Assembly: GCA_902772455.1 (NCBI GenBank)
Contig: CACYAW010000032.1
Span: 1 to 47,193, forward strand
Direction: 5' to 3'
DNA: 47,193 nucleotides
Source: an uncultured Bacteroidales bacterium
GTDB lineage: Bacteria > Bacteroidota > Bacteroidia > Bacteroidales > Muribaculaceae
The notes under the pieces are model-generated. The model saw only the letters and a list, made by a program, of their open reading frames with translations, was not told where the DNA came from and searched no databases. Shown in pieces: positions 31,855 to 47,010 of the stretch. Each line of letters opens with the position of its first letter. Within the stretch, counting starts at the first letter, position 1. A program made the translations under genes and the position numbers.

Positions 31855-33180
31855 TTACCCTTGGCCCTGGCTTTCGGGACGGAGGCCGAGGATGGGAGAG
31901 GCTACGTTGAGGCGACGGCGCCAGTCCCCGTTGGGGGTGTACAGCCAGACGTAGCCGCCGCTGATGGTGATCTCGTTGATGGTGCCGATGTAGCGGGGAA
32001 GGCGCAGGATGGCGCGCACGCGGCCATTCTGGTCGCAGATCTGGATGCCCAAACCGGTTACGGCCCAAAGGTTGCCCTTGCCGTCAAAGGTGATGGTCTG
32101 GATATCCAGCGGACGGCTGTTGTCGTCGTTGTGGAGCCAGTAGAATGGTTCACCGTGTGAGGGCTTGCCGTCCAGCAGCAGGTACTGCCACACGACATTA
32201 CCCGGCTCGTTGGGAATCATGGCAATATTGGTGAGGTCGGGATAGATGATGCGGGTCACGCGTTTGACATCCGAGCCATCGCCCGTTTTTTCCCATCCCT
32301 TGTCTTCGCTGATGAGCAGCTCTTGCAGGAAATCATTCTGGGATTCCCCCAAGGTGGGTGCTGCGGGCCAGTCGCGCCACATCCATTCCATCACTTGAGG
32401 GAAAATCTCGGTCGAGCGGGTCACGTTGTGGCCGCCATCGCTCCAGTCCATCTGCACGTCATAGCCCGCAAACTCCAAGGCGCTGGCCAGCATCTGGTTG
32501 CCCTCGTACCAATGGCCGAACAGCGGGTTCCACACGTCGTTGCTGCCATCCTGGATAAAGATGCGCAGAGGCTGAGGCTCGGTCTTGCGCACCAGGGCCT
32601 GCAGGTCGTTGCCGCCACGCATCGCCACAAACGTGCCCACTCCGGTGAATACCTTACTGAACAGGTCAGGCCGGTGCCATGCGGCGTTGAATGCCGCAAT
32701 GCCGCCGCTGCTCAGGCCGAAGATCATGCGGTCCTGCGGACGTTGCGACAGTCGGATGGGCTTTCCTTTTTGGGTCTTCATCTGCTCGACGGCGGGCAAC
32801 AGTTCTGTCTCCAGAAAAGAGGCGAACAGGTCGGTCGTGTTGTCGAACTCATAGCAGCGGTTGTAGCGCAATACCGTCCCGTTGTCATCCTTGATGATGC
32901 CGGGCTGCAGGAAGACACCGATGGTCACGGGCATCTTGCCCGCAGCGATGAGCGAGTCCATCACCTGGGGCGCACGGCACAGCACGCCGTCCAGCCCCAC
33001 ATACAGGGCCGCCGGCCGCTTGCCGTCATACTGTTCGGGAATATAGACCTGGAACGTGTGCACTGTCCCTGGATAGCACTCAGATCGATCCAAAACCCCA
33101 TCAATAAGAGTATGGCCCGCTAAAGCCGTCAAAGATATGGCGGCAAATATCGTTAACAGAGATAATCGTCTAGTCTTCAT
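31855..33180 (-). CDS. Secreted esterase-family hydrolase with C-terminal beta-propeller-like region
   Basis: The 441-residue protein has a signal peptide (MKTRRLSLLTIFAAISLTALAGH). Residues about 25-275 form an esterase-D / feruloyl-esterase-like alpha/beta hydrolase. The nucleophile elbow is G155-L-S157-S-G, H251 in SDGGHNV is the likely catalytic His, and D211 or D215 the acid. Residues about 300-441 look like SMP-30/gluconolactonase propeller strands (TITFDGKGNLWAV, GLGIQICDQNGRV, INEITISGGYVWLYTPNG). This pairing fits enzymes that remove acyl groups from plant or other polysaccharides; the substrate is unknown. The start at 33180 is preferred because an upstream ATG (33204) lies in the -7 box. 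Confidence 0.85.
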   Translation of the reverse strand: MKTRRLSLLTIFAAISLTALAGHTLIDGVLDRSECYPGTVHTFQVYIPEQYDGKRPAALYVGLDGVLCRAPQVMDSLIAAGKMPVTIGVFLQPGIIKDDNGTVLRYNRCYEFDNTTDLFASFLETELLPAVEQMKTQKGKPIRLSQRPQDRMIFGLSSGGIAAFNAAWHRPDLFSKVFTGVGTFVAMRGGNDLQALVRKTEPQPLRIFIQDGSNDVWNPLFGHWYEGNQMLASALEFAGYDVQMDWSDGGHNVTRSTEIFPQVMEWMWRDWPAAPTLGESQNDFLQELLISEDKGWEKTGDGSDVKRVTRIIYPDLTNIAMIPNEPGNVVWQYLLLDGKPSHGEPFYWLHNDDNSRPLDIQTITFDGKGNLWAVTGLGIQICDQNGRVRAILRLPRYIGTINEITISGGYVWLYTPNGDWRRRLNVASPILGLRPESQGQG

Positions 33181-33201
33181 GATTTCTTTGTTTTGATGCT
33201 G

Positions 33202-33209
33202 CAAATATA
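33202..33209 (-). promoter_or_regulatory. Candidate -7 box of the esterase gene
   Basis: The minus strand reads TATATTTG, a perfect TAnnTTTG, 21 bases before the chosen start. Confidence 0.55.
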
Positions 33210-33276: not shown

Positions 33277-33301
33277 AAAGTGTAAAAATATTAGACACTT
33301 T
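33277..33301. promoter_or_regulatory. Palindromic operator candidate, copy 1
   Basis: AAAGTGT-N11-ACACTTT, spacer AAAAATATTAG. It lies 66 bases upstream of the -7 box of the dockerin protein gene that follows. Two further copies precede the genes at 42482 and 47048. Confidence 0.7.
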
Positions 33302-33343
33302 TATTCAATTTAAAGCAAATGTTGTGTTTTTTCTTTATAATAA

Positions 33344-33375
33344 TTTGCAAAAGAAAGGTGCAGTCGGTAAATTTG
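33344..33375 (+). promoter_or_regulatory. Promoter of the dockerin protein gene at 33442
   Basis: TTTG (33344-33347), 20 bases, then TAAATTTG (33368-33375); both boxes match the Bacteroidota consensus. The ATG is 66 bases downstream. Confidence 0.7.
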
Positions 33376-33441
33376 CCGATGGCAATTTACCTTTATTGCT
33401 CCCCCAAAAAACAGTTATTAATCATTAATTCAGTTACAGTC

Positions 33442-34716
33442 ATGGAAAAAAGAGTATTTCTCACACTTCTTGTTGCGATGTTTATTGTGATTCCCTCAAT
33501 TGCAGACCCCACGCCCATTCCTCAAATTATATTTGAAGCCGGCATTGATGGTCACAACGAAGGAGCGCACGGTATAACGTATATCAGTAATCTATACGAT
33601 AATGTATGGGTATTTGATCATAGGGTTAGTGCAATAGGTGAAGGCGATGTTCACCTATACCTGAATGGAGAAGAAGTCTCCAATCCCTATTATATTTGCC
33701 ATGAATATTCAGATATTTCACAAGTATATAGTGATCAGGTATGGCAGTTTACCGCCACTGCTCAAATTGATGGTTATGAGATTAGCGAGACCAGTAGAGA
33801 AATCGTATCTCCCGGCATTCCCTTTTATTACATATACCATGATGAGGCCTCTGACTCATTCTGGATGGAACTGAACAATAGTGATGGAAGAACTATTTAT
33901 TATAAAACTCGATTTATTGACCCTTATACTGATAACTGGGAGTGGATAAGTACCGATTGGCAAGAATACGAAGGCCCGTTTAAGGTTTGGTATGCCCCCC
34001 AACCCCTATTTGAGTATAATTGTGTTATTGAAGTGTATTCATCGCGTGCTGTCGATACGGAGGACGTTCTTGGTAGTGATATGGGGGTAATCTTGAGCCT
34101 TAAGGACGAGATTGATGCCTTTGCGATCTATGGATATGAGTATTATAGAGATGGATTTTATTTTACATCTAATTATATTGCCTTTAATGGTCTTGGTATC
34201 TGCAACAAATATTATTATCCTGATGCATATCCTCCATGTTATTCTGGTGACATAACTACTCCTGATGTGACAATAATCTACGATAACACTTTTGCTCATT
34301 GTCCTGACTTGACGAGTATCGTTTTGCACGAATCAATCTCTGAGATTGGTTCCAATGCTTTTAGTGGTTGTACGGGCTTAAAGTCGATAACATGTAAACC
34401 CGTTAATCCGCCGAGTACATCAAATAGTTTTACTGATGAAAGCATTTATACTCAAGCGACATTGTTTGTACCTAATGAGTCGTTGGAGTCTTACCGTGCT
34501 CATGTAGAATGGGGACGTTTCTCTCGCATCGTTCCATTTGTGGGTGCTGGTCCTGGTGACATCGATGGTGACGGCGAGATCAATATTGCTGATGTGTCAA
34601 GCTTGATGGACCAGTTATTGACTGGGGAGGAATTGCCCTCCTACATTGATGCAAACGGCGATGGCGAGGTAAACATCAGCGATGTTGCTAAGATTATAGA
34701 TATATTGCTGAGGTAG
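33442..34716 (+). CDS. Secreted protein with LRR_5 unit and C-terminal dockerin-like repeats
   Basis: The 424-residue protein has a signal peptide (MEKRVFLTLLVAMFIVIPSIAD). The large N-terminal part (about 25-290) is rich in Tyr, Asp and Ser and matches nothing I recognise. A short BspA-type LRR segment follows (about 300-345, NTFAHCPDLTSIVLHESISEIGSNAFSGC). The C-terminal module reads TLFVPNESLESYR, then IVPFVGAGPGDIDGDGEI and DANGDGEVNISDVAKIIDILL, two EF-hand-like dockerin repeats. The same module ends the giant LRR protein at 42482. The body is markedly AT-rich (15 G/C in 60 bases at 34141-34200) while the module is not (26 in 60 at 34561-34620), which suggests a mosaic origin. The start at 33442 fits the signal peptide and lies after the promoter. 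Confidence 0.82.
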   Translation: MEKRVFLTLLVAMFIVIPSIADPTPIPQIIFEAGIDGHNEGAHGITYISNLYDNVWVFDHRVSAIGEGDVHLYLNGEEVSNPYYICHEYSDISQVYSDQVWQFTATAQIDGYEISETSREIVSPGIPFYYIYHDEASDSFWMELNNSDGRTIYYKTRFIDPYTDNWEWISTDWQEYEGPFKVWYAPQPLFEYNCVIEVYSSRAVDTEDVLGSDMGVILSLKDEIDAFAIYGYEYYRDGFYFTSNYIAFNGLGICNKYYYPDAYPPCYSGDITTPDVTIIYDNTFAHCPDLTSIVLHESISEIGSNAFSGCTGLKSITCKPVNPPSTSNSFTDESIYTQATLFVPNESLESYRAHVEWGRFSRIVPFVGAGPGDIDGDGEINIADVSSLMDQLLTGEELPSYIDANGDGEVNISDVAKIIDILLR

Positions 34717-34814
34717 GACCGTCCCCAGGCCTTGTGCAGGCCTTCGATCTGTTTGGACACAGCAATCATCCTGAATGACTCGATGGCGTGTCCTAATGCG
34801 GATATTTGGAAGAT

Positions 34815-34857
34815 AAACAAGCGTGCGTTCCCTAGGATGAGGAACGCACGCTTGTTT
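34815..34857. terminator. Bidirectional terminator between convergent genes
   Basis: A perfect 17-bp stem (34815-34831 with 34841-34857, 9-base loop) has a GC-rich core, with A-rich and T-rich edges (AAACAAG / CTTGTTTTA). It lies between the dockerin gene (plus) and the NlpC/P60 gene (minus) and can serve both. Confidence 0.9.
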
Positions 34858-34874
34858 TATGTGATCTGGCTTTT

Positions 34875-35405
34875 TTACAGAACCCGGCAGGCGCCGACGT
34901 AACGGCGGCTGTAGTAGGATTCGGTGTTCTTGCTCTCGGTCACGCCGCTGCTGCAAGCCGAATGGATGAAGTGGAAGGTGTTGTCGTCGTTCACCTTGGT
35001 GACGATGCCCACGTGGCCCACGCCACCGCGGCCCGAACGGCCCTGGAAGAACACGAGGTCACCGGGCTGCAGGTCTTTTTGCTTGACGCGCACGCCGTCA
35101 AAGATCTGACCCCTGGATGAGCGGTCGAGCTCGATGCCGAAGCGCTTGAATACGTAACTGGTAAATCCCGAGCAGTCAAAGCCACGAGGCGACATGGCAC
35201 CATAACGGTAAGGCGTGCCACGGAAGCCATAGGCGTACTTGATAACTTGGTCAATGATATTGTTGCGGCTGTTCTGCTCTAATTGTTCAAGAACAGTGCC
35301 TTGTTTGCGGTTACTCAGCAGCTGAGATTGTGCTGTGAAGCATGAAAGGGAAATTGCAAAAACTACAAATAATGATGTTAAACGTATTTTGTTGATAAAA
35401 CTCAT
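34875..35405 (-). CDS. NlpC/P60 family cell-wall hydrolase
   Basis: The 176-residue protein has a signal peptide (about 1-27, ending FTAQSQ) and one NlpC/P60 domain. The catalytic Cys is C78 in RGFDCSGFTSYVF, with H131 in GVGHVGIV and H148 in FIHSA completing the site. PGDLVFFQG is typical of the fold. Such enzymes cut peptide stems of peptidoglycan in the periplasm. The transcript appears to have a long leader, about 170 bases, with several hairpins. Confidence 0.92.
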   Translation of the reverse strand: MSFINKIRLTSLFVVFAISLSCFTAQSQLLSNRKQGTVLEQLEQNSRNNIIDQVIKYAYGFRGTPYRYGAMSPRGFDCSGFTSYVFKRFGIELDRSSRGQIFDGVRVKQKDLQPGDLVFFQGRSGRGGVGHVGIVTKVNDDNTFHFIHSACSSGVTESKNTESYYSRRYVGACRVL

Positions 35406-35414
35406 AAATAATTA

Positions 35415-35530
35415 TTTTAGAGGACTGGAAGTTTCGCTCCATCGAGCGGTCCCTTCGTCAAGGGCATCGTGAACGATGACAATGCCGTGCGCCCTGGTTT
35501 GTTCTCTAATCAGATAGGCGGTGCCTCAAC
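35415..35530 (-). promoter_or_regulatory. Hairpin-rich 5' leader of the NlpC/P60 gene
   Basis: On the minus strand the leader contains a nested hairpin, AGGGC...GCCCT enclosing GCAT...ATGC and CATCG-TTCA-CGATG. A second hairpin, CGCTC-GATG-GAGCG, follows. GAGG at 5' and CCTC at 3' could close the whole. It matches no riboswitch class I can name. A regulatory RNA role is inference. Confidence 0.4.
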
Positions 35531-35584
35531 AAAAAAAGAACCAATTCTTTTATCTGTGTGCGGCTTGCACTATCTTTCACGCTG

Positions 35585-35592
35585 CAAAGGTA
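35585..35592 (-). promoter_or_regulatory. Candidate -7 box of the NlpC/P60 gene
   Basis: The minus strand reads TACCTTTG, a perfect TAnnTTTG, 179 bases before the start codon, implying a leader of about 170 bases. Confidence 0.5.
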
Positions 35593-35830
35593 GGGCAATA
35601 CCGTAACGCAGCCAAACTCCTTAAACACTTGTAAACATTTTACCGAAAATGGTATTTTAGGCCGACTGTTCCACGCAAATTCCCTTATAACAGTGCTTCG
35701 CGGCATGTCCCGAAGTTTAAATTTTGGAAATTAAAAATGAAAAAGTTTACACTTTTTAACAATAAATGGCATCCTATAAGATTTATTTTTTGAATTTTTG
35801 CTATCAAAACCAGCCTTCAAGTGAAGTAAA

Positions 35831-35868
35831 AGGCCTCGTCGAATTGCAAAATGCAATCGCCAAGGCCT
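35831..35868 (-). terminator. Terminator after the beta-helix/LRR/dockerin gene
   Basis: An imperfect hairpin, AGGCCT...TTGCA / TGCAA...AGGCCT, is followed by TTTTA on the minus strand and by GTTTTA on the plus strand. It lies about 100 bases beyond the stop of the gene ending at 35969. Confidence 0.7.
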
Positions 35869-35968
35869 GTTTTATTAAAAAAGTGATTTTTGCTCCCCAA
35901 ATGGGATGATTCAGTCGATGCTATTCGCCGTGGAACAATAGCTAAAAATGCAGGGCGAGTGCTGTCGG

Positions 35969-38146
35969 TTAATGATTGCTCAGCAACATGTCAACCAGTG
36001 CGGTCACGTCACTGATGTTGACGCTGCTGTCGCCATTGACATCGGCGGCGGCCGGAGCGGTACCGCCAGCGAGCAACAGGTCGACGAGGGCGGTCACGTC
36101 GCTGATGTTGACGCTGCCGTCGCCATTCACATCGCCGATGAGGCTTGTAACTACTATCTCGTCCCAGATTGAGCCATTGTACTGATAGGGCGTCCAGTTC
36201 TTGTCATTGGCGACGGCGACGTGGGAGGCGTTGAAGACATTCACCTCCCCGCTGTCGTAAAGCACGCGCAGGTTTCCTGCTGTAGTCGCGCTGCGGTCGG
36301 GAAGACTGTTGACGAGTGCTGTCATGCCTTCCTGGGTGAAATAGTTGCGGTAGCAGTACAGTTGCTGCAACTGTGTGCATGACGAGATGTCAAGCGATGC
36401 CAAGTGGTTGGAGTAGCAGTAGAGTTTTTGCAGACTTGTGCAACCCGTGAGGTTAAGTACGGTCAGTGCATTTTCTGAACACAGGAGCGTCGTCAAGAGG
36501 GCGTTATCCGACACGTTCAATGACGTCAACCTTGACAGGCCGTACAGCGTGAGAGTGGCGAATTTATTGTTGCTGCACTCCAGGACCCGCAGGTTGTCTG
36601 GCGGAGTGAGCGAGATGAGAGCATTGTTCTGGCAATACACGCTTTGCAACTGCACACAATCCCGCAGGTAGAGCGTTCTCAGCGAGTTGGAACGGCAATC
36701 GAGGCCCTGTAGCGAACTACATCCCTCCACGCTGAATTGAGTCAACGCATTGCTGTTGCAGTAGAGCCACTTCAGGGAATAGTTGTCATTGAGATACAGG
36801 GTCTTGAGTTTCTCTTTGCCTGTTATCGAAAAGACTGTCATCTGGCTGCCAGTGCAGTAGATCTCTTCAATCTGGTGGCATCCGTCGAGGTCAAGCTCTG
36901 CCAGGTTGTTATCATAGCTGGTAAATTTCTTTAGCTGTTTGCAGTCGGTTAGATTGAGTCTTCCCAAATAATTATAGCTGCAGTCCAGTTCCTGTAGCTG
37001 ATTGCAGCCATCCAGGTAGAGGGATGTCAGACTATTGTTGTTACACAGGAGTTTGGTCAGCGATGCGTTGTTTTTTACATCCAGGGTGGTCATAAGCGGC
37101 AAGTTGGAGATATCGAGTGACGTGAAGGCGTTGTTTCTGCAATATAGCGACAGCAGCTTGGTGCATGCCGACACGTTGAGCGTGGTGAGATTGTTGTCCG
37201 AGCAATTCAGCGCCTCCACTCCGGTAAGTAGCTCGATACCCTTGAGGTTGGAGATGTTGCGGCCGTTTACGTAGACCCCCGTGCAATTGTTGACTTCACT
37301 TGTGGTCATGTAGCCCAAGGGATAGTTCAAGAGCATGTAGGAACGGAAGTTGGCGTCGGGAAAAGTGTTGCTATTAATCAGTACCGCATAATTGTCAGTA
37401 ATGTGGATGGTTTTATCATAAATCAGGCTGCCGTCCTTGATAATGCCCTGGTAGGAATTACTGTAGTGGGCATCCGATGGCGATGCGACTGCCTCGCTGC
37501 CATTGAAGGTCATGGCGGCCAGATTTGAAGCGACGGGGTAGCTGCTGTTACTCGTTGCCTTGAGGACGATGTGGCTGCCCGCATTCACGGTCACGCGTGC
37601 CCAGTCATACAGGGCGCCCTTCTTGCCCGATGCCTCGACATTGACGTTGGTAAAGGTCAATGTGCTCGAGCTGCTTGTACCCTTGCCCTCAAAGCCATAC
37701 TTGTCGTTGGTAGACTTCACGATCAGTTTGCCGGGGCCGGAGACGGTAACTGCCACGTTGTTGCTGTACACGCCACCCTCGGTGCCGCCGGTGACGGTGG
37801 TCGTGCCGCTGGACACGACGATTGAACCCGGCTGATTGAAGCGGATGACCGACGCCGACGAGGCGCTCAGGGTGTTGGTGCCTACGAGCTTGATGATCAG
37901 TCCCGAGCGGTCACTCTGGACGGCGCGGTTGTCGGTACCCGTGCGTGTAATGGTGACATTGGTCAGCGTCAACGTGTTGTTACTCGGTGTAAACACCGCG
38001 GTACCGCTGGTGATGTTGCTGCCCGTGATGTTGCTGCAGTTGTCACTGGTGACTCTCACGCCACCCACATAGAAGTTGTAATCGGTTGCTGCCTGTGCCG
38101 CGATTGTCGTTACAAGCAACAGAATCAGTAGTACAGATTTTTTCAT
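35969..38146 (-). CDS. Surface protein: beta-helix-like N-terminus, LRR array, C-terminal dockerin-like repeats
   Basis: The 725-residue protein has a signal peptide (MKKSVLLILLLVTTIAAQA). Residues about 21-260 are Ser/Thr/Asn/Val-rich strands (TLTLTNVTITRTGTDNRAV, IVVSSGTTTVTGGTEGGV) that look like a right-handed beta-helix, resembling Cthe_2159-type carbohydrate-binding proteins, though I am not sure. Residues about 290-620 are internalin/TpLRR-like repeats of about 21 residues (LYCRNNAFTSLDIS, LDCSYNYLGRLNLTDC) with many Cys and Asn. The C-terminus has two dockerin-like repeats, GDVNGDGSVNISDVTALVDLLL and ADVNGDSSVNISDVTALVDMLL. A promoter box is at 38216-38223. It is a different LRR class from the BspA types in this window but shares their C-terminal module. 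Confidence 0.87.
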   Translation of the reverse strand: MKKSVLLILLLVTTIAAQAATDYNFYVGGVRVTSDNCSNITGSNITSGTAVFTPSNNTLTLTNVTITRTGTDNRAVQSDRSGLIIKLVGTNTLSASSASVIRFNQPGSIVVSSGTTTVTGGTEGGVYSNNVAVTVSGPGKLIVKSTNDKYGFEGKGTSSSSTLTFTNVNVEASGKKGALYDWARVTVNAGSHIVLKATSNSSYPVASNLAAMTFNGSEAVASPSDAHYSNSYQGIIKDGSLIYDKTIHITDNYAVLINSNTFPDANFRSYMLLNYPLGYMTTSEVNNCTGVYVNGRNISNLKGIELLTGVEALNCSDNNLTTLNVSACTKLLSLYCRNNAFTSLDISNLPLMTTLDVKNNASLTKLLCNNNSLTSLYLDGCNQLQELDCSYNYLGRLNLTDCKQLKKFTSYDNNLAELDLDGCHQIEEIYCTGSQMTVFSITGKEKLKTLYLNDNYSLKWLYCNSNALTQFSVEGCSSLQGLDCRSNSLRTLYLRDCVQLQSVYCQNNALISLTPPDNLRVLECSNNKFATLTLYGLSRLTSLNVSDNALLTTLLCSENALTVLNLTGCTSLQKLYCYSNHLASLDISSCTQLQQLYCYRNYFTQEGMTALVNSLPDRSATTAGNLRVLYDSGEVNVFNASHVAVANDKNWTPYQYNGSIWDEIVVTSLIGDVNGDGSVNISDVTALVDLLLAGGTAPAAADVNGDSSVNISDVTALVDMLLSNH

Positions 38147-38215
38147 AATATCATGTGATTATGAAGTGAATAATAATCCTAATACAATAAAAATGCAAAC
38201 CAAATATTTGATTTG

Positions 38216-38223
38216 CAAAGTTA
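38216..38223 (-). promoter_or_regulatory. Candidate -7 box of the beta-helix/LRR gene
   Basis: The minus strand reads TAACTTTG, a perfect TAnnTTTG, 69 bases before the start codon. The AAAGTGT palindrome found before three other surface genes is absent here. Confidence 0.5.
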
Positions 38224-38329
38224 ATGAAAAATATTAAATAATGATACGTTTCTTGTTTGATTTTGCAACGGGGCGTTTTTTTGCCGCTCATGCTGCATGA
38301 GGCTGGCATTACATGCTTGAGGGGGCGGG

Positions 38330-38821
38330 TCAGTTAGAGATGAAGTAGCCGCCGGCGCTGGGCATCACACGGTACTTACGCATGCCCACCTTGTTGTTGA
38401 TGGCTACGCCGTAAACGGGACCGCCGTCACCGGTGAGCGGGTTGTAGTGTGAGCCGCACTTGGGGCATACTGCCTCGAAATTATCGGCATTGATCGATAG
38501 CGTGATATTCGGGTCGATTTCGACGGGGCATGCCATGTCATAGGCTAGGGGGGCATCGATGCCCATCATCAGCAACACGCCGCCAAAGCCGGTGTAGGTG
38601 TTGACGTTATAGGGGAAATTCGCAGGAATTTTTTTCTCGCGGTTGAAGATCTGGTATTCCCCCATGCCGTGGACACCATAGGTGTTCCACATGGCATAGT
38701 TGCCCAGGTCAATGCGCACAATGAAGCTGGGGATGCTTTTGTTGTCAATCCTGTCGCAGCTGCCACACAGTGCCAGTAGCATGATGGCGGCGGTAATCGC
38801 TAAAAACTTTGTCTTTTTCAT
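38330..38821 (-). CDS. Rieske-like lipoprotein with incomplete cluster ligands
   Basis: The 163-residue product has a lipoprotein-type signal (LLALCGSC, probable lipidated Cys at 22). The mature domain resembles a Rieske fold: ACPVE at 97-101 and CPKCGSHYNPLTGDGGPV at 119-136, where a true Rieske protein has CxH and CxxH. Here C122 and H125 give the second CxxH, but in the first box the His is replaced by Val (C98-P-V100). A normal [2Fe-2S] cluster with two His ligands is therefore unlikely. C119 with C122 could instead bind a metal. Function unknown; the fold is inferred. Confidence 0.7.
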   Translation of the reverse strand: MKKTKFLAITAAIMLLALCGSCDRIDNKSIPSFIVRIDLGNYAMWNTYGVHGMGEYQIFNREKKIPANFPYNVNTYTGFGGVLLMMGIDAPLAYDMACPVEIDPNITLSINADNFEAVCPKCGSHYNPLTGDGGPVYGVAINNKVGMRKYRVMPSAGGYFISN

Positions 38822-38893
38822 TTCTTAGGCAATTATTATGACTATTAAACGCAAAAAATGGTCTATAGATTGTAAGAATTGGGAAAAAATAAA

Positions 38894-38901
38894 TAATTTT
38901 G
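38894..38901 (+). promoter_or_regulatory. Candidate -7 box of the glycosyltransferase gene
   Basis: TAATTTTG matches TAnnTTTG, 21 bases before the ATG at 38923. This makes the in-frame TTG at 38899 an unlikely start. Confidence 0.55.
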
Positions 38902-38922
38902 CGTCCACTTAAACATTATTAT

Positions 38923-39678
38923 ATGGATCCATTGTTCTCAATCATCACTGTCACATGGAATGCCGCTGGCGTCATCGCTCCAACGCTTGAGAGCGTGCGA
39001 AGCCAATCGAGCAGCGACTATGAGATGCTGATTGTCGATGGCGCGTCCACCGACGACACGCTGTCCATCGTCGGTCAGTCGTCCATCGCGTCATTGCGTG
39101 TGTTCAGTGAGCCCGACAAGGGCTTGTATGATGCCATGAACAAGGGTATTGCCTGGGCGCGCGGGCGTTATCTCATTTTCCTGAATGCGGGCGATGCCTT
39201 TGCCGATGATGCCGTGTTGGCGCGCTTGGCGCGTCTGGCAACTGATGACCCTGGGGTGATTTATGGTCAGACCCAGCTGGTTGACGGCGCCCGCAACGTG
39301 GTGGGGAAGCGACACTTAACGGCACCCAAGCGCCTGACGGCCGACAGCTTCCTCAACGGCATGGTGGTGTGCCACCAGGCTTTTATCGCACGTAGGGACC
39401 TGGTGCCGCAATACGACCTGCAATACCGGCTGAGCGGAGACTATGACTGGTGCATCAAGGTGCTGCGCCAGTCCCCGCACAATGCCTATGCCGGCGATGC
39501 CCCGATTATCAGCTACCTGGCCGACGGCATGACCACGCGCCACCATCGCGCCTCGTTATGGGAGCGTTACCGCATCATGTGCCGTCACTACGGAGCCTTC
39601 AGGGCGACCATGAGCCATTTGGGATTTATTCCCCGATATGTGAAACGCCGCATGAGCGGTGCTGCCAACAGGCAATGA
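38923..39678 (+). CDS. Family 2 glycosyltransferase
   Basis: The 251-residue protein is a GT-A fold inverting glycosyltransferase. The N-terminus SIITVTWNAAGVIAPTLESV and the nucleotide-sugar segment EMLIVDGASTDDTLSIV are typical. EPDKGLYDAMNKGIAWARGRYLIFLNAGD carries the D-x-D-like region, and LSGDYDWCIKVL holds the likely catalytic Asp. It resembles WcaA/WcaE-like enzymes that add a sugar to a surface polysaccharide. It stands alone before the PBP gene (40 bases apart), with no polysaccharide cluster in the window, so the substrate is unknown. Confidence 0.9.
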   Translation: MDPLFSIITVTWNAAGVIAPTLESVRSQSSSDYEMLIVDGASTDDTLSIVGQSSIASLRVFSEPDKGLYDAMNKGIAWARGRYLIFLNAGDAFADDAVLARLARLATDDPGVIYGQTQLVDGARNVVGKRHLTAPKRLTADSFLNGMVVCHQAFIARRDLVPQYDLQYRLSGDYDWCIKVLRQSPHNAYAGDAPIISYLADGMTTRHHRASLWERYRIMCRHYGAFRATMSHLGFIPRYVKRRMSGAANRQ

Positions 39679-39718
39679 CCTGTACCAACCAACAATCATT
39701 AACCTCAACTACTTGCAC

Positions 39719-42151
39719 ATGGAGAAACATCAGACTGGAAATATCATCACCCGCAACTGGCATCGGTTCAAGATATGGTACAAAGGATTGTACCGCGGGC
39801 GTCCGTGGTGGGTCAAGACGCTTGCCGCCCTGGGAACTTTCATCGTGTTGTTCCTGCTTTATCTGATAGCGGTGGACTTCAACTTGCTGTGGCTCTTCGG
39901 CAAATCGCCCAGCACCTACAGCATCATGCATCCCCGCAATCCCGAGGCCAGCTACCTTTACAGTGCTGACGGCAAGACGATTGGCAAATACTATGATGAG
40001 AACCGCACGCCGGTGCCCTACGACTCAATCAACCCGCAGTTTTTCCAAGTGCTCATCGATACCGAGGACGAGCGTTTCTATCTCCATCACGGTATCGACT
40101 TCGGCGGCCTCGGTGCCGCTGTCAAGGATCTGGTGCTGCATGGCCGTCCCCGCGGTGCCAGCACGATCACGCAGCAGCTTGTGAAGAATATGTTCCGCAC
40201 GCGCAGTGACTACTCTACGGGTCTGTTGGGCTACATCCCTGGCGTGAAGATGCTTATCATGAAGAGCAAGGAGTGGATTATCGCCACCAAGTTGGAGATT
40301 TTCTACAGCAAGAAGGAAATCCTGGAGATGTATGCCAACACGGTGGACTTTGGCAGTAACGCTTATGGCATCAAGACGGCCGCCAATACCTACTTCAAAA
40401 CGACGCCCCGACACCTCAAACTGGAGGAGAGCGCAGTGCTTGTGGGTCTGCTCAAGGCCACGAGCACCTATAATCCCCGCATTAACCCCAAGAACAGCCT
40501 GCGCCGCCGCAACCAGGTGCTCAAGAACATGGTCAAGCGCGGAGACTTGACCGACCTGCAGTATGACTCGGTGTCCTCGTTGCCCATCGACCTGAAATAT
40601 ACCCTCGAAACCAACTACGATGGCGTGGCTCCCTACTTCCGCGAGGCCGTGGCACGTGAGATCGAGGATATTGCCAAGGCCAAGGGCGTCAAGCTGGACC
40701 TGGAGCGTGACGGTCTCAAGATTTATACCACGCTCGACTCCAAGATGCAGGAGTATGCCGAGCAGGCCGTGAGCGAGAAGATGAAGATTGTGCAGCACAA
40801 CTTCAAGAACCACTGGGGCGACAACGATTGCTGGCTTGACGAGAACAACCAGCCTATTGCCGGCTTTGTCGAGGACAAGGCGCGCAACACGCCCATCTAC
40901 CATGAGCTGCTGGCCCGTTATCCCAATGACCTGGACTCGGTCAACTATTACATGAACCAGCCCCACATGGTGCATCTGTTTGACTACGAGAACGACTCGC
41001 TCTACATGGAGATGAGTTCTATAGACTCGGTGCGTTACATGCTGCACTTCATGCACTGCGGCTTCATTGCCATGGAGCCCAGCAACGGCCATGTCAAGGC
41101 ATGGGTGGGCGATGTGGACTTTGACACCTGGAAATATGACAAGGTGCGCGCTAAGCACCAGCCTGGCTCCACCTTCAAACTCTTTGTCTATGCCATGGCG
41201 ATGGAACGTGGCCTTGTGCCTTGTGACCGCCGCCTTGACGAGTATATCGACACCCTGGTCTATAATGAGGAGAAGCATGAGCTGGAGCACTGGCGTCCCA
41301 CCAATGCCAACGGCACCTTCTCTGGGTCACAGATGACGTTGCGCTCGGCCTTTGCCCAAAGTATCAATAGCGTCACCGTGCGAGTAGGCACCGAAGTGGG
41401 CTTCGGCGAAATTGCCCAGCTAGCCCGCGACATGGGCATCAATTCGCCCATGGAAGCCAAGCCCGCCCTCTCGCTGGGAGCCAGCGATGTGGACCTGATG
41501 GAGCTTGTCAACTCCTATTGCACGGTGGTGAACGACGGCATGCGCAACGACCCGATACTCGTCACGCGCATCGTGGACCGCGACGGCAAGGAAATCTACC
41601 GCGCCCCCTCTCATCAGGAGCGCGCCATGGCCTACCGCTCGGCATGGCTTATGCAGCAGATGCTGCTGGCTTGCCGCACCGATGCCGGAGGCACCGCCAT
41701 GGCCCTCAACGGCTATATCACCCGTCCGCTCTATGACGTGGACCTGGGCGGCAAGACGGGCACCAGCAACCGCCACGCCGATGCGTGGTTCGTCGCTGTG
41801 TCGCCAGCACTGGTGTGCGGTGCATGGGTGGGCGGCGAATACCGCCAGATCCACTTCCGTTGGGGCTCGCTGGGGCAGGGTAGCCGCACGGCATTGCCCA
41901 TCTGCGGCCGTTTCCTGCAGCTTGTGCTGAGCGACCCGCAGTTCCAGCGCTACCACCAGCGCTTCCAGCCCGCCAAGGAGCCCATCAATGCCGACCTCTA
42001 CTCGGGCTGCTCATCAATCGCTCCTGTCGAGGAGTTCGATTCTACCATGCTGGACATGGAGAACGACTCGCTGTTCGTTCCCCTCACCGATGATATCAAT
42101 AATAACGAGAAATTGCATATCGAGGATCCCGCTGTCCCCGACTCAGTATAA
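39719..42151 (+). CDS. mrcA: Penicillin-binding protein 1A (glycosyltransferase/transpeptidase)
   Basis: This is a class A PBP that polymerises and cross-links peptidoglycan in the periplasm. The 810 residues begin with a cytoplasmic tail and one membrane anchor (about 35-57). The GT51 domain follows, with catalytic E116 in EDERFYLHHG and the GASTITQQLVKN motif (147-157). The transpeptidase domain has S484-T-F-K487 (SxxK), S548-I-N550 (SxN) and K679-T-G-T682 (KTGT). All catalytic motifs are intact. The start at 39719 is chosen because ATGs further up would add an unneeded leader overlapping the glycosyltransferase gene. A palindromic terminator follows. Confidence 0.95.
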   Translation: MEKHQTGNIITRNWHRFKIWYKGLYRGRPWWVKTLAALGTFIVLFLLYLIAVDFNLLWLFGKSPSTYSIMHPRNPEASYLYSADGKTIGKYYDENRTPVPYDSINPQFFQVLIDTEDERFYLHHGIDFGGLGAAVKDLVLHGRPRGASTITQQLVKNMFRTRSDYSTGLLGYIPGVKMLIMKSKEWIIATKLEIFYSKKEILEMYANTVDFGSNAYGIKTAANTYFKTTPRHLKLEESAVLVGLLKATSTYNPRINPKNSLRRRNQVLKNMVKRGDLTDLQYDSVSSLPIDLKYTLETNYDGVAPYFREAVAREIEDIAKAKGVKLDLERDGLKIYTTLDSKMQEYAEQAVSEKMKIVQHNFKNHWGDNDCWLDENNQPIAGFVEDKARNTPIYHELLARYPNDLDSVNYYMNQPHMVHLFDYENDSLYMEMSSIDSVRYMLHFMHCGFIAMEPSNGHVKAWVGDVDFDTWKYDKVRAKHQPGSTFKLFVYAMAMERGLVPCDRRLDEYIDTLVYNEEKHELEHWRPTNANGTFSGSQMTLRSAFAQSINSVTVRVGTEVGFGEIAQLARDMGINSPMEAKPALSLGASDVDLMELVNSYCTVVNDGMRNDPILVTRIVDRDGKEIYRAPSHQERAMAYRSAWLMQQMLLACRTDAGGTAMALNGYITRPLYDVDLGGKTGTSNRHADAWFVAVSPALVCGAWVGGEYRQIHFRWGSLGQGSRTALPICGRFLQLVLSDPQFQRYHQRFQPAKEPINADLYSGCSSIAPVEEFDSTMLDMENDSLFVPLTDDINNNEKLHIEDPAVPDSV

Positions 42152-42182
42152 AGGACTTATTGACATGATGACGATAATGAAA

Positions 42183-42204
42183 CTCAGGATGGCGCCATCC
42201 TGAG
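42183..42204 (+). terminator. Terminator after the PBP gene
   Basis: A perfect 22-base palindrome, CTCAGGATGGC / GCCATCCTGAG, is followed by CTTTC. It lies 31 bases after the PBP stop codon. Confidence 0.65.
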
Positions 42205-42285
42205 CTTTCAGGCATTGTGTCATGACGGTATGGCCTGCATGATGATTGTTGGAAAAATCGGATAAAGTATCATAGCCTGGATGAC

Positions 42286-42310
42286 AAAAGTGTAAAATTT
42301 TTTGACACAA
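42286..42310. promoter_or_regulatory. Palindromic operator candidate, copy 2
   Basis: AAAGTGT-N11-ACACAAA, spacer AAAATTTTTTG. It lies 68 bases before the -7 box at 42379. The right half-site is extended by a second inverted repeat that follows directly. Confidence 0.65.
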
Positions 42311-42378
42311 AAGTGAGAAAATTTCACTTTTGGCGTGCTTTTAAATGGAAAAATGAAAAACAGTTGTGATTGTGTTAG

Positions 42379-42386
42379 TATTTTTG
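42379..42386 (+). promoter_or_regulatory. Candidate -7 box of the giant LRR gene
   Basis: TATTTTTG matches TAnnTTTG, 95 bases before the ATG. A -33 box at good spacing is not evident. Confidence 0.45.
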
Positions 42387-42481
42387 TCTTGGAAATGAAA
42401 TAGAGTCTCTAAATAGAGTGCATGATGAATGCTGCAAAGATGTACTGATGATGATTTGTTTAACTTTAAATATTATGAGTG

Positions 42482-45400
42482 ATGAAAAAACAGATTTACG
42501 CTTTATTGCTGCTGCTGATGGTTTGTCTGTCGGCAAGCGCTCAGACGCAGTTTTGGTATCGCGGTGTCCACTATGAGGTTTCGGAATACCAAAACGCAAT
42601 TGTGATTGCGGCTAACAATGGCGCATACAGTGGAAAAATCACGATTCCCGAGACGGTTTATGCCCAGGTATATGCCTCATCGGGCGGTGGCTATTATGAG
42701 ACCCCGTTCAAGGTTGTGGGAATCGGTGAAGAGGCTTTCAGTAATTGTTCAGGCTTGACCGAGGTTGTGTTGCCTAAGTCGCTTGTCTCCATTGAGAGGC
42801 GTGCGTTTGAAGGGTGCACAGGCCTGACGGCTATCAATTTGCCCTTGTCGGTCTCAAAACTTGGTGATAGTGCTTTCTCGGGATGTACGGGTTTGACCAG
42901 TGTCACACTTCCCGAAGCGCTCGCATCAATCGGTAGCGACATTTTCAACGAGTGCACGGGTTTGCAGCAAGTTGCCCTACCCCGAAAACTCCTTACTATC
43001 GCTACTGGCATGTTCAAGGGCTGCACGGGCTTGCGCAGCATCACGTTGCCTAGGGCGCTCAAGAATATCGGTGACAATGCTTTTTATGGCTGTACGGGTT
43101 TGACAAGTATAACGTTGCCCTCCTCGTTAAGAGAAATTGGCTCATCTGCCTTTGGCTATTGCACCGGTTTGAGCAGCATTACCATTCCCAAGTCGGTAGA
43201 ATCGCTGGGCTGGAACGCCTTTTACTACTGTAGCGGACTGACCAATGTCACACTCACGCGCGGCACGGGCTACCTTAATGGAACCTTTGTGGGCTGCTCT
43301 GGTTTGACCCATGTGTCTATTCCCATTGGTGTGATATCACTGAATGAAACATTTAAGGATTGTACCGCTTTGGCTTCGGTAGATATTCCCGCAAGTGTGT
43401 CGAGCATCAGTGGGGCGTTTGAGGGCTGCACCAGTCTGTCGAGTGTGTATATCCCTAACTCGGTGACCCAGATTAACGGTAATGCTTTCCGCAACACGGC
43501 ATTAACCTCTATTGAGTTGCCAAGCACTGTGACCTCGGTTGGCAGTGGCGCGTTTGATGGTTGTGAGTTAACGTCGATCACCACTCGTCGCCTGACGCCT
43601 CCCTCGATTTACAATGGCACTTTCTCCAGTGAGGCCTATGTGACGGCCGCTCTTCATGTGCCTGCCGTGGCATTGAACCAGTACAAGAGTGCCAACTGGT
43701 GGAAACTGTTTGAGCAGGTACAAGGCGAGGAGGCCCTGAACACGACCTATGACTTTGAGGTGAACAATCTCTATTATCTGATCACCGGCAACAATACCGT
43801 TTGTGTGACAGGCGGGCAGCCAAGTACGAGCAGTCTGGTGATTCCGGCCAGTGTGTCCCATGCAGGCGTGACCTATCAAGTGACAGGAATTGGTAATGAG
43901 GCTTTTAAAAACAAGGATTTGACGAGTCTGAGCCTTCCGGAGTCTCTTGTGACGATTGGCATAAGTGCTTTCGAAAACTGTTCCGGCTTGACGAGTCTGA
44001 CGATTCCAGTGAATGTCTCTTACATCGGCAATTCTGCTTTTGCAGGCCTCACCCAATTGGCGACCCTGGTGTGGAACGCACGTGAATGCTGGCAGACCGG
44101 TATCCCCTATCAAAACATCGGATACGGTAAGAACTATTATTATGATTATGAAGAATACCAGATCTATTACGATGATGTGAAGACCAATCTGACCGAGCTC
44201 ATTATTGGCAACGAGGTGAAGGTTTTGCCCATAGGTTTGGCCGCCAATTCACAGATCACATCAGTCAACATGCCGTCGTCGTTAGAGGCCATTGGCGAGG
44301 ATGTGTTCTATGACTGCATTCATCTGTCGAGTCTGACCATTCCCGAAAATGTGACGAGCATCGGCGAACATGCTTTCTGCAATTGTGATGGTTTGAGGTC
44401 TCTCACATGGAACGCCCGTGAGTGTTGGGACTACGGCGGGTTGTATTATAAGGTTGAGTATCCTGAAGTTACCGGATATAATGACAATACTCCCGAAGGA
44501 AGTTGCCCGTTCAGCGAACTCACCATTGGTGACGGGGTGGAAGTGCTGCCTGCTCATTTCGCCCATAGCGCCTTCATCACTAGCATTGAGCTCCCGTCAT
44601 CGCTCAAGACCATCGGAGACTATGCGTTCTATAATTGCTGGAACGTCACCAGCGACATCGTTATTGGAGATAATGTGACCGATATTGGTGATTACGCTTT
44701 TGGCGGATGTGCAAGGGTGAAGAGTTTGACTGTGGGCAAGAATGTCAAGTTTATTGGGAACTATGCCTTTGGTACTTCATCTGAGGCAGTTGTAAGCGAT
44801 TGGGGCTATGGTTATCAAAATGAAGTGCCTGCTATGGCATTGACCTCGTTGACGTGGAATGCCCGTGAATGCTATTCGGCAGGAAGTCTTGGTTATTATT
44901 GTATCGACAACTTGACGATTGATGATCAAGTAGAGGTGTTGCCTGACAACTTCGCTTGCGATGCCCGTGATTTATACTCAGTAACATTTCCCAGTTCACT
45001 CAAGGTCATTGGCAACTATGCATTCGCTTATTGCTACGGCATTACCAATCTTTCATTGCCTTCATCGGTTACTACGATTGGTGACTATGCATTTAAGGAG
45101 TGCTATGGATTGACTAGGGTCACCTTACCATATTCCGTCCGTTCACTCGGTGCCCATGCATTTGAGTCTTGTGGTAGGTTGATTCAGCTTTCCTTGCCCG
45201 AATCGCTCGAGTCGATAGGTTCAGGGGCGTTCACTTATTGCTCTCTTCTTCAAAGCCTTCATATTCCGGCATCTGTGACAAGTATTGGCGAGGGCGTATG
45301 CCGTAATTGTAATTCCTTGGCATCGGTTGATGTGGCAAGCGGTAATACGGTTTATGATTCCCGCGATAATTGTAATGCCGTCCTTGTTACAGCAACCGAC

Positions 45401-46822
45401 TCGATTGTTATCACCTGCAAGAACACGGTGATTCCAAGTACCGTGACAAGAATCTGCGATTATGCGTTCTATAACAATGAGAAACTGACCTCGATGGACA
45501 TTCCTGAGACGGTGCTTTCCATCGGAAGATATGCATTCTATGGTTGCTCTAAGCTGACGGGAATCGAAATTCCTGATGCTACCGCATCCATTGGAGAATA
45601 TGCCTTTGGAAACTGCTGGCAACTGGCATCGGTAAAATTGCCGAAATCGCTCAAGATTATTGAAAGAAACACGTTTGCATATGACGAGGCTTTAACCGGT
45701 ATCGTTATCCCTGACTCGGTCACCGAGATTAGAGAGTGGGCCTTCGCAGGCTGTCATTCGTTAGCTCAGCTTCAATTATCCCAGTCGCTCAAGAGCATAG
45801 GGGACTACGCATTTAGCGGCTGCTCCAATATTAAGCGCCTTGAGATTCCTGCAGCAGTTTCATCTATAAAGAGGAGCTCGTTCTATGCTTGCAGCGGCTT
45901 GGATACGATCATCGTTGATCAGGATAACCAGGTGTATGACTCCCGTGACAACAGTAATGCGATAATCGAGACGGAGTCCAATACCTTGATGATGGGTTGT
46001 AACAGCAGTACCGTTCCCGATGGGGTGAAGGCCATTGGTGATTCGGCGTTCTATCAATGCTACACACTTCCAGCTGTTGTGATGCCCAATACGGTAGAAA
46101 GAATCGGCGATAATTCCTTTGCTTCTTGCAATGCTCTGGAAAGTGTTGATATGGGCACATCGGTTAAATCCATCGGTGCTGAAGCATTCTATTCTTGTGA
46201 CAATTTGAAGTCCGTTAAGATACCCAATGCGGTAGATACCATTAATAGGTATACGTTTGGTTTTTGCTCCAAGTTGGAACGTCTTGAGTTGAACCCGTCA
46301 CTCAAGCTGATTGATAGTTATGCATTCTATTATTGTGGAAGTTTGAAATCGGTCATCATTCCCGATTCGGTGTTGAGAATCAGTTACGACGCTTTTGCTT
46401 ACTGTAATGCGATGACCAGTGTGACGATAGGCAAATCGGTCACTTCAATTGATTATTATGCGTTTAATAGCTCGGCCATGGCTCATGTGGTCTGCCTGTC
46501 AACCACACCGCCTAGCCTCAGTTCTTACGCCTTCTCCTCGCAGGCCTATAATAATGCGACATTGCAGGTGCCCCTGGAGTCGCTGGAGGCCTACCAGCAG
46601 CATAACTATTGGAAGAAGTTCACGCACATTGTGCCGTTTATCGGGGCTGGCCCTGGCGACATCGACGGTGATGGCGAGATCAACATCGCTGACGCCACTC
46701 GACTCATCGACAAGTTGCTCAGTGGCGAGGAATTGCCCGCCTACATCGACGTGAACGGCGACGGCAGTGTGGACATCGCTGATGTGACATCCATCCTTGA
46801 CAGTATGCTCGGCGGCAACTGA
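42482..46822 (+). CDS. Giant BspA-type leucine-rich-repeat surface protein with C-terminal dockerin-like repeats
   Basis: The 1446-residue protein starts with a signal peptide (MKKQIYALLLLLMVCLSASAQ). It then carries some dozens of LRR_5 units of about 23 residues (IGDNAFYGCTGLTSITLPSSL pattern) in at least three blocks (about 65-370, 450-860, 870-1365). Non-LRR strands interrupt them (NTTYDFEVNNLYYLITGNNTVCV; repeated LTWNARECW motifs). The C-terminus (about 1365-1446) has TLQVPLESLEAY, VPFIGAGPGDIDGDGEI and DVNGDGSVDIADVTSILDSML, the dockerin-like module also found at the end of the gene at 33442. It is exported, probably to the cell surface, as an adhesin or ligand-binding protein. ATG at 42482 is chosen over the preceding GTG. 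Confidence 0.9.
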   Translation: MKKQIYALLLLLMVCLSASAQTQFWYRGVHYEVSEYQNAIVIAANNGAYSGKITIPETVYAQVYASSGGGYYETPFKVVGIGEEAFSNCSGLTEVVLPKSLVSIERRAFEGCTGLTAINLPLSVSKLGDSAFSGCTGLTSVTLPEALASIGSDIFNECTGLQQVALPRKLLTIATGMFKGCTGLRSITLPRALKNIGDNAFYGCTGLTSITLPSSLREIGSSAFGYCTGLSSITIPKSVESLGWNAFYYCSGLTNVTLTRGTGYLNGTFVGCSGLTHVSIPIGVISLNETFKDCTALASVDIPASVSSISGAFEGCTSLSSVYIPNSVTQINGNAFRNTALTSIELPSTVTSVGSGAFDGCELTSITTRRLTPPSIYNGTFSSEAYVTAALHVPAVALNQYKSANWWKLFEQVQGEEALNTTYDFEVNNLYYLITGNNTVCVTGGQPSTSSLVIPASVSHAGVTYQVTGIGNEAFKNKDLTSLSLPESLVTIGISAFENCSGLTSLTIPVNVSYIGNSAFAGLTQLATLVWNARECWQTGIPYQNIGYGKNYYYDYEEYQIYYDDVKTNLTELIIGNEVKVLPIGLAANSQITSVNMPSSLEAIGEDVFYDCIHLSSLTIPENVTSIGEHAFCNCDGLRSLTWNARECWDYGGLYYKVEYPEVTGYNDNTPEGSCPFSELTIGDGVEVLPAHFAHSAFITSIELPSSLKTIGDYAFYNCWNVTSDIVIGDNVTDIGDYAFGGCARVKSLTVGKNVKFIGNYAFGTSSEAVVSDWGYGYQNEVPAMALTSLTWNARECYSAGSLGYYCIDNLTIDDQVEVLPDNFACDARDLYSVTFPSSLKVIGNYAFAYCYGITNLSLPSSVTTIGDYAFKECYGLTRVTLPYSVRSLGAHAFESCGRLIQLSLPESLESIGSGAFTYCSLLQSLHIPASVTSIGEGVCRNCNSLASVDVASGNTVYDSRDNCNAVLVTATDSIVITCKNTVIPSTVTRICDYAFYNNEKLTSMDIPETVLSIGRYAFYGCSKLTGIEIPDATASIGEYAFGNCWQLASVKLPKSLKIIERNTFAYDEALTGIVIPDSVTEIREWAFAGCHSLAQLQLSQSLKSIGDYAFSGCSNIKRLEIPAAVSSIKRSSFYACSGLDTIIVDQDNQVYDSRDNSNAIIETESNTLMMGCNSSTVPDGVKAIGDSAFYQCYTLPAVVMPNTVERIGDNSFASCNALESVDMGTSVKSIGAEAFYSCDNLKSVKIPNAVDTINRYTFGFCSKLERLELNPSLKLIDSYAFYYCGSLKSVIIPDSVLRISYDAFAYCNAMTSVTIGKSVTSIDYYAFNSSAMAHVVCLSTTPPSLSSYAFSSQAYNNATLQVPLESLEAYQQHNYWKKFTHIVPFIGAGPGDIDGDGEINIADATRLIDKLLSGEELPAYIDVNGDGSVDIADVTSILDSMLGGN

Positions 46823-46847
46823 CGTCTAGTTAGCCAATAAACATCTT

Positions 46848-46885
46848 TTTACGCCCAGACTCGTCACATGAAGTCTGGGCGTAAA
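46848..46885 (+). terminator. Terminator after the giant LRR gene
   Basis: A perfect 14-bp stem, TTTACGCCCAGACT / AGTCTGGGCGTAAA, has a 10-base loop, followed by TCGTTTTTG. It lies 25 bases after the stop codon. Confidence 0.9.
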
Positions 46886-46910
46886 TCGTTTTTGCTCACA
46901 ACTTTTCCAC

Positions 46911-46935
46911 AAAGTGTAAAAAAATTAGACACTTT
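46911..46935. promoter_or_regulatory. Palindromic operator candidate, copy 3
   Basis: AAAGTGT-N11-ACACTTT, spacer AAAAAAATTAG. It is nearly identical to copy 1 and lies 67 bases before the candidate -7 box at 47003. Confidence 0.7.
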
Positions 46936-46979
46936 AGCGTAAATAAATGAGCATCTTATAGATTTACCTGCTTTTTTAG

Positions 46980-47010
46980 TTGCAAAGTCGATAAATGCAA
47001 AGTAATTTAG
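46980..47010 (+). promoter_or_regulatory. Candidate promoter of the last gene
   Basis: TTG (46980-46982), 20 bases, then TAATTTAG (47003-47010), one mismatch from TAnnTTTG. The ATG is 37 bases downstream. Confidence 0.5.

Follow-up and report, generated by a model that had tools for sequence, protein, structure and literature searches.

The DNA analysed here, referred to as the window, is a stretch of 47,193 nucleotides in which three copies of a common palindrome lie upstream of genes for secreted or signal-peptide-bearing proteins (Table 1). All results given here were computed from sequence. All three sites proposed in the initial annotation are present, and the second lies one base away from where it had been placed. 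The form AAAGTGT-N11-ACACTTT describes the first and third copies, while the second ends in ACACAAA. When the window was searched with the 25-mer, allowing up to 3 mismatches, five strand-hits were found at three places, compared to a mean of 0.00 in shuffled versions of the window. Immediately behind operator 2 is a second palindrome, AAAGTGAGAAAATTTCACTTTT, which does not match the motif core; it has roughly the position expected for the proximal member of the 23-bp pairs described below, and could conceivably play that part.

Candidate promoter elements were found on the downstream side of each copy. The distances from the 25-mer to the -7 box, previously given as 66, 68 and 67 bases, are 66, 67 (68 from the end point used at that time) and 67 bases, and the third box is a variant. 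A leftward box at operator 1, TATATTTG, was absent from the initial annotation and would serve the divergent secreted esterase gene. In PMC7366714, TAnnTTTG is given as the -7 consensus of the Bacteroides primary sigma factor, and the sigma assignments made here, whether primary-sigma or sigma54-like, are matches to such consensus sequences. The first two genes, described before as secreted proteins with dockerin-like ends, were found by Pfam to encode BspA-type LRR_5 repeats with a C-terminal Dockerin_1 domain. The third has a signal-peptide-like N-terminus and is truncated by the contig end, as had been noted; a Pfam scan of the 48 aa present gave no match. In another genome, G193, a site also lies between genes similar to those that flank operator 1.

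Table 1. Features of the window and the candidate regulator gene encoded elsewhere in the same genome
Feature	Position	Strand	Remarks
Putative operator 1	33277..33301, core 33281-33297		Between secreted esterase gene and LRR-dockerin gene; -7 boxes on both sides
Putative operator 2	42287..42311, core 42291-42307		Sequence match
Putative operator 3	46911..46935, core 46915-46931		Sequence match
Second palindrome AAAGTGAGAAAATTTCACTTTT	42311..42332		Immediately behind operator 2; no match to motif core
Candidate -7 box TATATTTG	33202..33209	-	Divergent esterase gene; 72 nt past operator 1 core
Candidate -7 box TAAATTTG	33368..33375	+	LRR-dockerin gene; 71 nt past operator 1 core
Candidate -7 box TATTTTTG	42379..42386	+	72 nt past operator 2 core
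Variant -7 box TAATTTAG	47003..47010	+	72 nt past operator 3 core; departs from strict consensus
Secreted esterase-family protein, 441 aa	31855..33180	-	Pfam Esterase 1.8e-12 (scanned as 31855-33204); predicted divergent target of operator 1
Secreted LRR_5 + Dockerin_1 protein, 424 aa	33442..34716	+	Pfam; predicted target of operator 1
Secreted BspA-type LRR_5 protein with C-terminal Dockerin_1, 1446 aa	42482..46822	+	Pfam; predicted target of operator 2
Signal-peptide-like protein start, cut by contig end	47048..47193	+	Sequence; predicted target of operator 3
Response regulator, 175 aa	G000 contig C96:12373-12897	-	Response_reg + HTH_8; directly before small histidine kinase gene

The genome-wide search that had been suggested revealed copies well beyond the three in the window. 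Allowing up to 2 mismatches, the motif GTGTMWAAWWWTTWKACAC was found at 20 places in the window's genome (G000) compared to 1 for the reversed control, and the exact core TGTMWAAWWWTTWKACA (TGT-MWAAWWWTTWK-ACA) occurs 14 times compared to 0 for the control. The arrangement of the sites was analyzed in G000, G164, G180, G187 and G193, taking all sites in the fetched stretches that have at most 1 mismatch. All 24 pairs of sites that lie 15-30 bp apart have a spacing of exactly 23 bp. A gene side was counted if a gene of at least 100 aa was present within 400 bp of the site. On this basis, TAnnTTTG was found 70-73 nt past single sites on 37 of 53 gene sides. For tandem sites, it was 49-51 nt past the proximal member on 15 of 27 gene sides, and boxes were few at other distances. 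The strict box is missing at these peaks on the remaining 16 single and 12 tandem gene sides, some of which may be unregulated. When counted by site group, at least one side fitted in 57 of 69 groups from the five genomes and in 14 of 17 groups from G000. In three genomes, a box lies just 21 nt past a divergent site. The symmetric base table of the sites pools both strands and carries no weight as evidence of symmetry.

With the spacing windows now fixed, they were tried on 40 stretches from five other genomes, every one containing an exact site; these comprised all listed site groups of G212, G213 and G221, 10 of those listed for G242, and 2 of 8 for G211. Thirty-six of the 40 held-out site groups fitted (21/23 single and 15/17 tandem), so the random placement relative to promoters that would speak against an operator is contradicted. 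The per-position rate of boxes was 37/286 inside the windows versus 13/10,114 outside, a difference of about 100-fold. Near-matches of the type TGTATAAAAATTAAACA and its kin were excluded from the gene-side, held-out-fit and signal-peptide counts, and were retained in the tally by site group (57/69) and in the per-position rate. This near-match recurs five times in G193 (C1:25911, C2:23042, C7:128478, C8:9010 and C28:36988), is also found in G000 (C47:20888), G164 (C52:115636) and G187 (C20:29643), and is perhaps a piece of a repeated element with no operator function.

Among the genes that follow the motif in G000 are those for LRR_5, dockerin and cohesin-dockerin proteins, for C10 (two) and S8 peptidases, and for an esterase, a SusC/RagA protein and an FtsX/MacB_PCD permease; five of the scanned target proteins had no Pfam match. 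The range of targets is broader than dockerin proteins. For one of the C10 peptidase genes (C41, rightward), the box falls outside the spacing window, at 59 nt. Across the five genomes, signal peptides were assigned to 50 of 53 promoter-phased targets (those with a TAnnTTTG or TAnnTTCG box); for the remaining genes of these stretches, the count was 182 of 448 (Fisher p 4e-15). The heuristic behind these counts is our own and lenient, some membrane proteins pass it, and orthologues in different genomes are not independent. Such an enrichment was among the checks suggested in the initial annotation. A scan of 10 proteins for T9SS sorting tails gave a sole match, below the cut-off, in the S8 peptidase. 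The motif precedes the gene for the secreted protein that combines Cohesin and Dockerin_1 domains in this Bacteroidales genome (L033:5983-7812, G000 contig C33).

Conservation in front of orthologues, another proposed check, was assessed in pairs chosen to be motif-bearing in both genomes, and six sites were found again elsewhere, ahead of genes whose N-termini match. In seven alignments of these six sites, selected in this way, identity was 76-88% within the site versus 38-68% outside. The copies might alternatively be what is left of a repeat or mobile element, or mark an inversion site, with no regulatory meaning. Copies that are many and near-identical would be expected from such an element, and yet sequence agreement drops outside the palindrome and the promoter spacing is fixed, also in the held-out genomes. 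This explanation was considered extremely improbable and was rejected.

A candidate for the protein that reads the palindrome is encoded elsewhere in G000. The 175-aa response regulator on contig C96 contains Response_reg (6e-22) and HTH_8, a Fis-type HTH (3e-14), and the AAA+ Sigma54_activat domain was absent from its 188-aa ORF by Pfam. The adjoining kinase contains HATPase_c (6e-15), and the two-component hallmarks, an LTHEIMN box and LLDMNF, are present in the sequences, such that a receiver regulator is encoded together with a histidine kinase as in a two-component system. Tandem sites lie 292 bp upstream of the response regulator gene. In a first sample of 16 genomes of the same genus, the five with 6-14 exact sites were the same five that carried the regulator, and the other 11 had neither at the thresholds used. 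When the search was extended to 101 genomes of the genus, 28 carriers were found (E 1e-89 or better). The median number of exact sites was 9 in the 28 carriers versus 0 in the 73 non-carriers, and at least three exact sites were present in 26 of 28 carriers versus 0 of 73 non-carriers (Mann-Whitney p 1e-18 for the site counts, with related genomes treated as independent). The exceptions among the carriers were G249 (1 exact site) and G257 (2), and 12 of the 73 non-carriers had exact sites (11 with 1 and one with 2). The co-occurrence across the 101 genomes was run for this regulator alone.

The tandem sites on C96 are also followed by a rightward TAAATTTG box, at 50 nt (L042:13213-13430). There is no clear gene for several hundred bases past this box, and the next ORF of at least 200 aa is on the opposite strand. 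The rightward promoter may possibly give rise to a non-coding transcript or belong to a decayed target; a small-RNA scan found no forward-strand terminator behind it. The end of C96 (L042) is the reverse complement of the start of C100 (L043), and the two may be neighbours or may contain a common repeat.

In 21 of the 28 loci of the genus, a site with up to 1 mismatch was found in the 600 bp upstream of the regulator gene, and in several of these the box before the regulator was TAnnTTCG or departed from the consensus in another way. In 7 of 28, including G193, there was no site with up to 2 mismatches within the same distance; G193 has 14 exact sites elsewhere in the genome. This pattern could also arise if the palindrome were read by another transcription factor, unlinked to this locus, that has the regulator gene as one of its targets and no more, given that most of the loci have a site in the regulator's own upstream region, that seven have none, and that palindromes of this size fit many HTH families. 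We consider this quite unlikely, because the presence of the regulator predicts site abundance across the 101 genomes, many sites in a regulator-less genome were not seen among the 73, and, as described below, other genera have this operator clustered with homologous activators whose recognition helix is similar. The TGT...ACA half-sites fit the NtrC/NifA class. The reading that is favoured, and that is very probably correct, is that the palindrome is the operator of this two-component response regulator, which has a receiver and a Fis-type HTH, is without AAA+, and would act at primary-sigma promoters. The initial annotation had no named regulator for the motif, and none was found among the best-ranked open-access literature matches; by co-occurrence and adjacency, the 175-aa response regulator is now a strong candidate.

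Relatives of this regulator were taken from the best 80 of 525 loci in a scan of named genomes. Fifty-four of these 80 are 65-73% identical, with one isolate counted twice, and their labels include Prevotella, Prevotellaceae, Bacteroidales, Parabacteroides and Candidatus Minthosoma; the named relatives mostly have metagenome-assembly or uncultured labels, and many of the genomes are incomplete. All 54 are 170-186 aa from the match start, too short to hold AAA+. An upstream site (up to 1 mismatch, 600 bp) was found at 50 of these 54 Prevotella-like and other Bacteroidales loci, and the four misses include one with just 92 bp of upstream sequence and two with pairs at 2 mismatches. All 14 tandem groups in the Prevotella-like genomes fitted the 49-51 nt window. 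Among groups with one recognisable site, 2 of 56 fitted the 70-73 nt window, and 51 boxes were at 50 nt. These single sites may be pairs with a degenerate distal member, as 50 of 62 distinct boxed sides at 49-51 nt have a 17-mer (up to 2 mismatches) 22-24 bp upstream. As judged from their N-termini, the genes on the boxed sides mostly have the look of TolC, HlyD, FtsX and ABC ATPase exporter components. In 29 of these genomes, the number of exact sites is 0-8 (three with none), which is below most carriers of the window's genus.

Exact sites were also present in 35 genomes of other genera, and the sites were fetched for 15 of these. A full NtrC-type activator was found in the operator's cluster in 10 of the 15 (G066, G082, G044, G025, G062, G152, G168, G125, G149 and G102), about 5 kb from the site in the case of G066. 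The activators are 442-453 aa in nine genomes by gene calls, and 476 aa as an open frame in G025. PF00158 was detected at the nine activator loci searched, with G149 outside the search, and the domain was shown in full for G082. The gene after the operator is TolC-like in eight, FtsX-like in G102 and of unassigned type in G062; OEP, HlyD, FtsX and ABC_tran were identified by Pfam in one cluster, that of G082. The activator and the site are also present in G098 and G138. In the genus g15 (G058, G077 and G093), the regulator is a 192-aa form without AAA+. In two of them, G058 and G077, about 61 nt separate the proximal site from the box of the TolC-like gene, so that the spacing rule differs. 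No such regulator was found near the site in G035 and G074, among the 15 genomes fetched.

The promoters at the activator loci are of a different type. TGGC is present past the proximal site in all ten, at 54 nt in eight and 55 nt in two, versus 0 of 67 sites of regulators without AAA+ at 54-55 nt (the Prevotella-like set, all chosen for a -7 box). The -24/-12 scores at these loci were 0.71-0.93, compared to 0.74 for the 95th percentile of the best shuffle scores in one region; because the scores overlap this percentile, the constant position of TGGC is the stronger evidence. In G125, TAnnTTTG is also present at 48 nt, and the -24/-12 score is slightly better at another position. These promoters bear on whether the site is instead a repressor operator of the same regulator. 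Binding where the box is 21 nt past a divergent site, as in the three genomes noted above, could block the promoter, but in most cases 49-73 nt separate the end of the core from the -7 box downstream, a fixed spacing that places the site upstream of the core promoter, and in the related systems the same operator precedes sigma54-like elements. Sigma54 promoters require an activator. A repressor role is unlikely on these grounds, and activation is the preferred reading. The earlier proposal of a dimeric regulator, more likely an activator, of a possible surface-protein regulon is supported by the fixed upstream spacing and the signal-peptide enrichment.

The two kinds of protein have similar recognition helices: of 17 regulators and activators compared, 10 have the identical sequence RQTLYNKMK there, and most of the others have a near-identical one. 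In the loci seen, the kinases are 388-435 aa beside full activators versus 280-328 aa beside regulators without AAA+ (L142:6988-8295 vs L042:11510-12373); a PAS domain in the longer kinases was an impression by eye, and the one that was scanned had no Pfam match for it. A published sigma54 survey (PMC12316311) ties sigma54 to FtsX-like permeases, Bacteroidia included. The idea that the AAA+ domain is missing because sigma54 was lost is unsupported, as rpoN was found in 27 of 28 genomes searched, including G000; the exception, G062, is 78% complete. In the tree, all rows without AAA+ fall on one side of a branch with 98/95 support, and the g15 branch is very long; AAA+ may have been lost once or twice.

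Compared with known systems, the closest are the NtrC-family sigma54 activators of Bacteroidales themselves. They resemble the G000 regulator in the receiver (43-53% identical in the nine searched), the Fis-type HTH and the similar helix, and their loci resemble the G000 system in having the same operator in tandem and a partner kinase, with exporter-type genes in the cluster. They differ in that AAA+ Sigma54_activat is present and TGGC lies 54-55 nt past the operator, whereas the G000 regulator is without AAA+ and its sites stand before primary-sigma boxes. PorX is not known to have a Fis-type HTH. The PorX/PorY-sigmaP system of Porphyromonas, as outlined in PMC8265659, is likewise a Bacteroidales two-component control of secretion-related genes, likened here by description, and acts through sigmaP. 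ActR/PrrA/RegA proteins, compared on domains and size, also have a receiver and a Fis-type HTH in about 175 aa without AAA+, but the G000 regulator scored 66.7 bits against their model (NCBIfam NF033791), short of the cut-off of 250. NtrC proteins of Rhodobacter and Caulobacter that lack GAFTGA act at sigma70 promoters, according to PMC10274813, and so provide a likeness for NtrC-type control of primary-sigma promoters; in that account they keep AAA+ and lack just a loop, while the G000 regulator is without the whole domain.

In the mechanism that we propose, an envelope or external signal would activate the kinase, and the phosphorylated regulator would bind TGT-MWAAWWWTTWK-ACA as a dimer, either as one dimer alone or as two dimers 23 bp apart. 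Bound at a fixed place upstream of a primary-sigma promoter, it would recruit RNA polymerase, with activation taken to be its effect over repression. The predicted targets are secreted and surface proteins (LRR, dockerin, cohesin-dockerin, C10, S8, SusC and esterase) and an FtsX/MacB-like permease; in most carriers, the regulator probably also acts on its own gene.

The motor domain of the regulator and the type of promoter change together, and the operator is common to both. It is fairly likely, judging from these comparisons, that one operator has served two transcription machineries, a full NtrC-type activator with a sigma54-like element and a regulator without AAA+ with a primary-sigma -7 box, and that it later spread to secreted and surface genes in the rumen lineage, so that what had been an exporter switch became a surface-protein regulon. 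The simplest account would be that AAA+ was lost, the promoter was replaced, and the operator then spread to the secreted-protein genes of that lineage. We infer the direction (loss of AAA+ rather than gain), the number of events and the sigma assignments.

For the secreted peptidases, adhesin-like LRR proteins and dockerin proteins of uncultured ruminant-gut Bacteroidales, these results supply a regulator and an operator that can be tested. The spacing rules could aid the prediction of regulated promoters in a phylum with few mapped regulons. The results also provide an example of promoter rewiring that can be traced, in which sigma54-like promoters accompany an activator that bears the ATPase and primary-sigma boxes accompany one that does not, and the question of how activators cross the divide between sigma54 and the primary sigma factor is made testable by these genomes.
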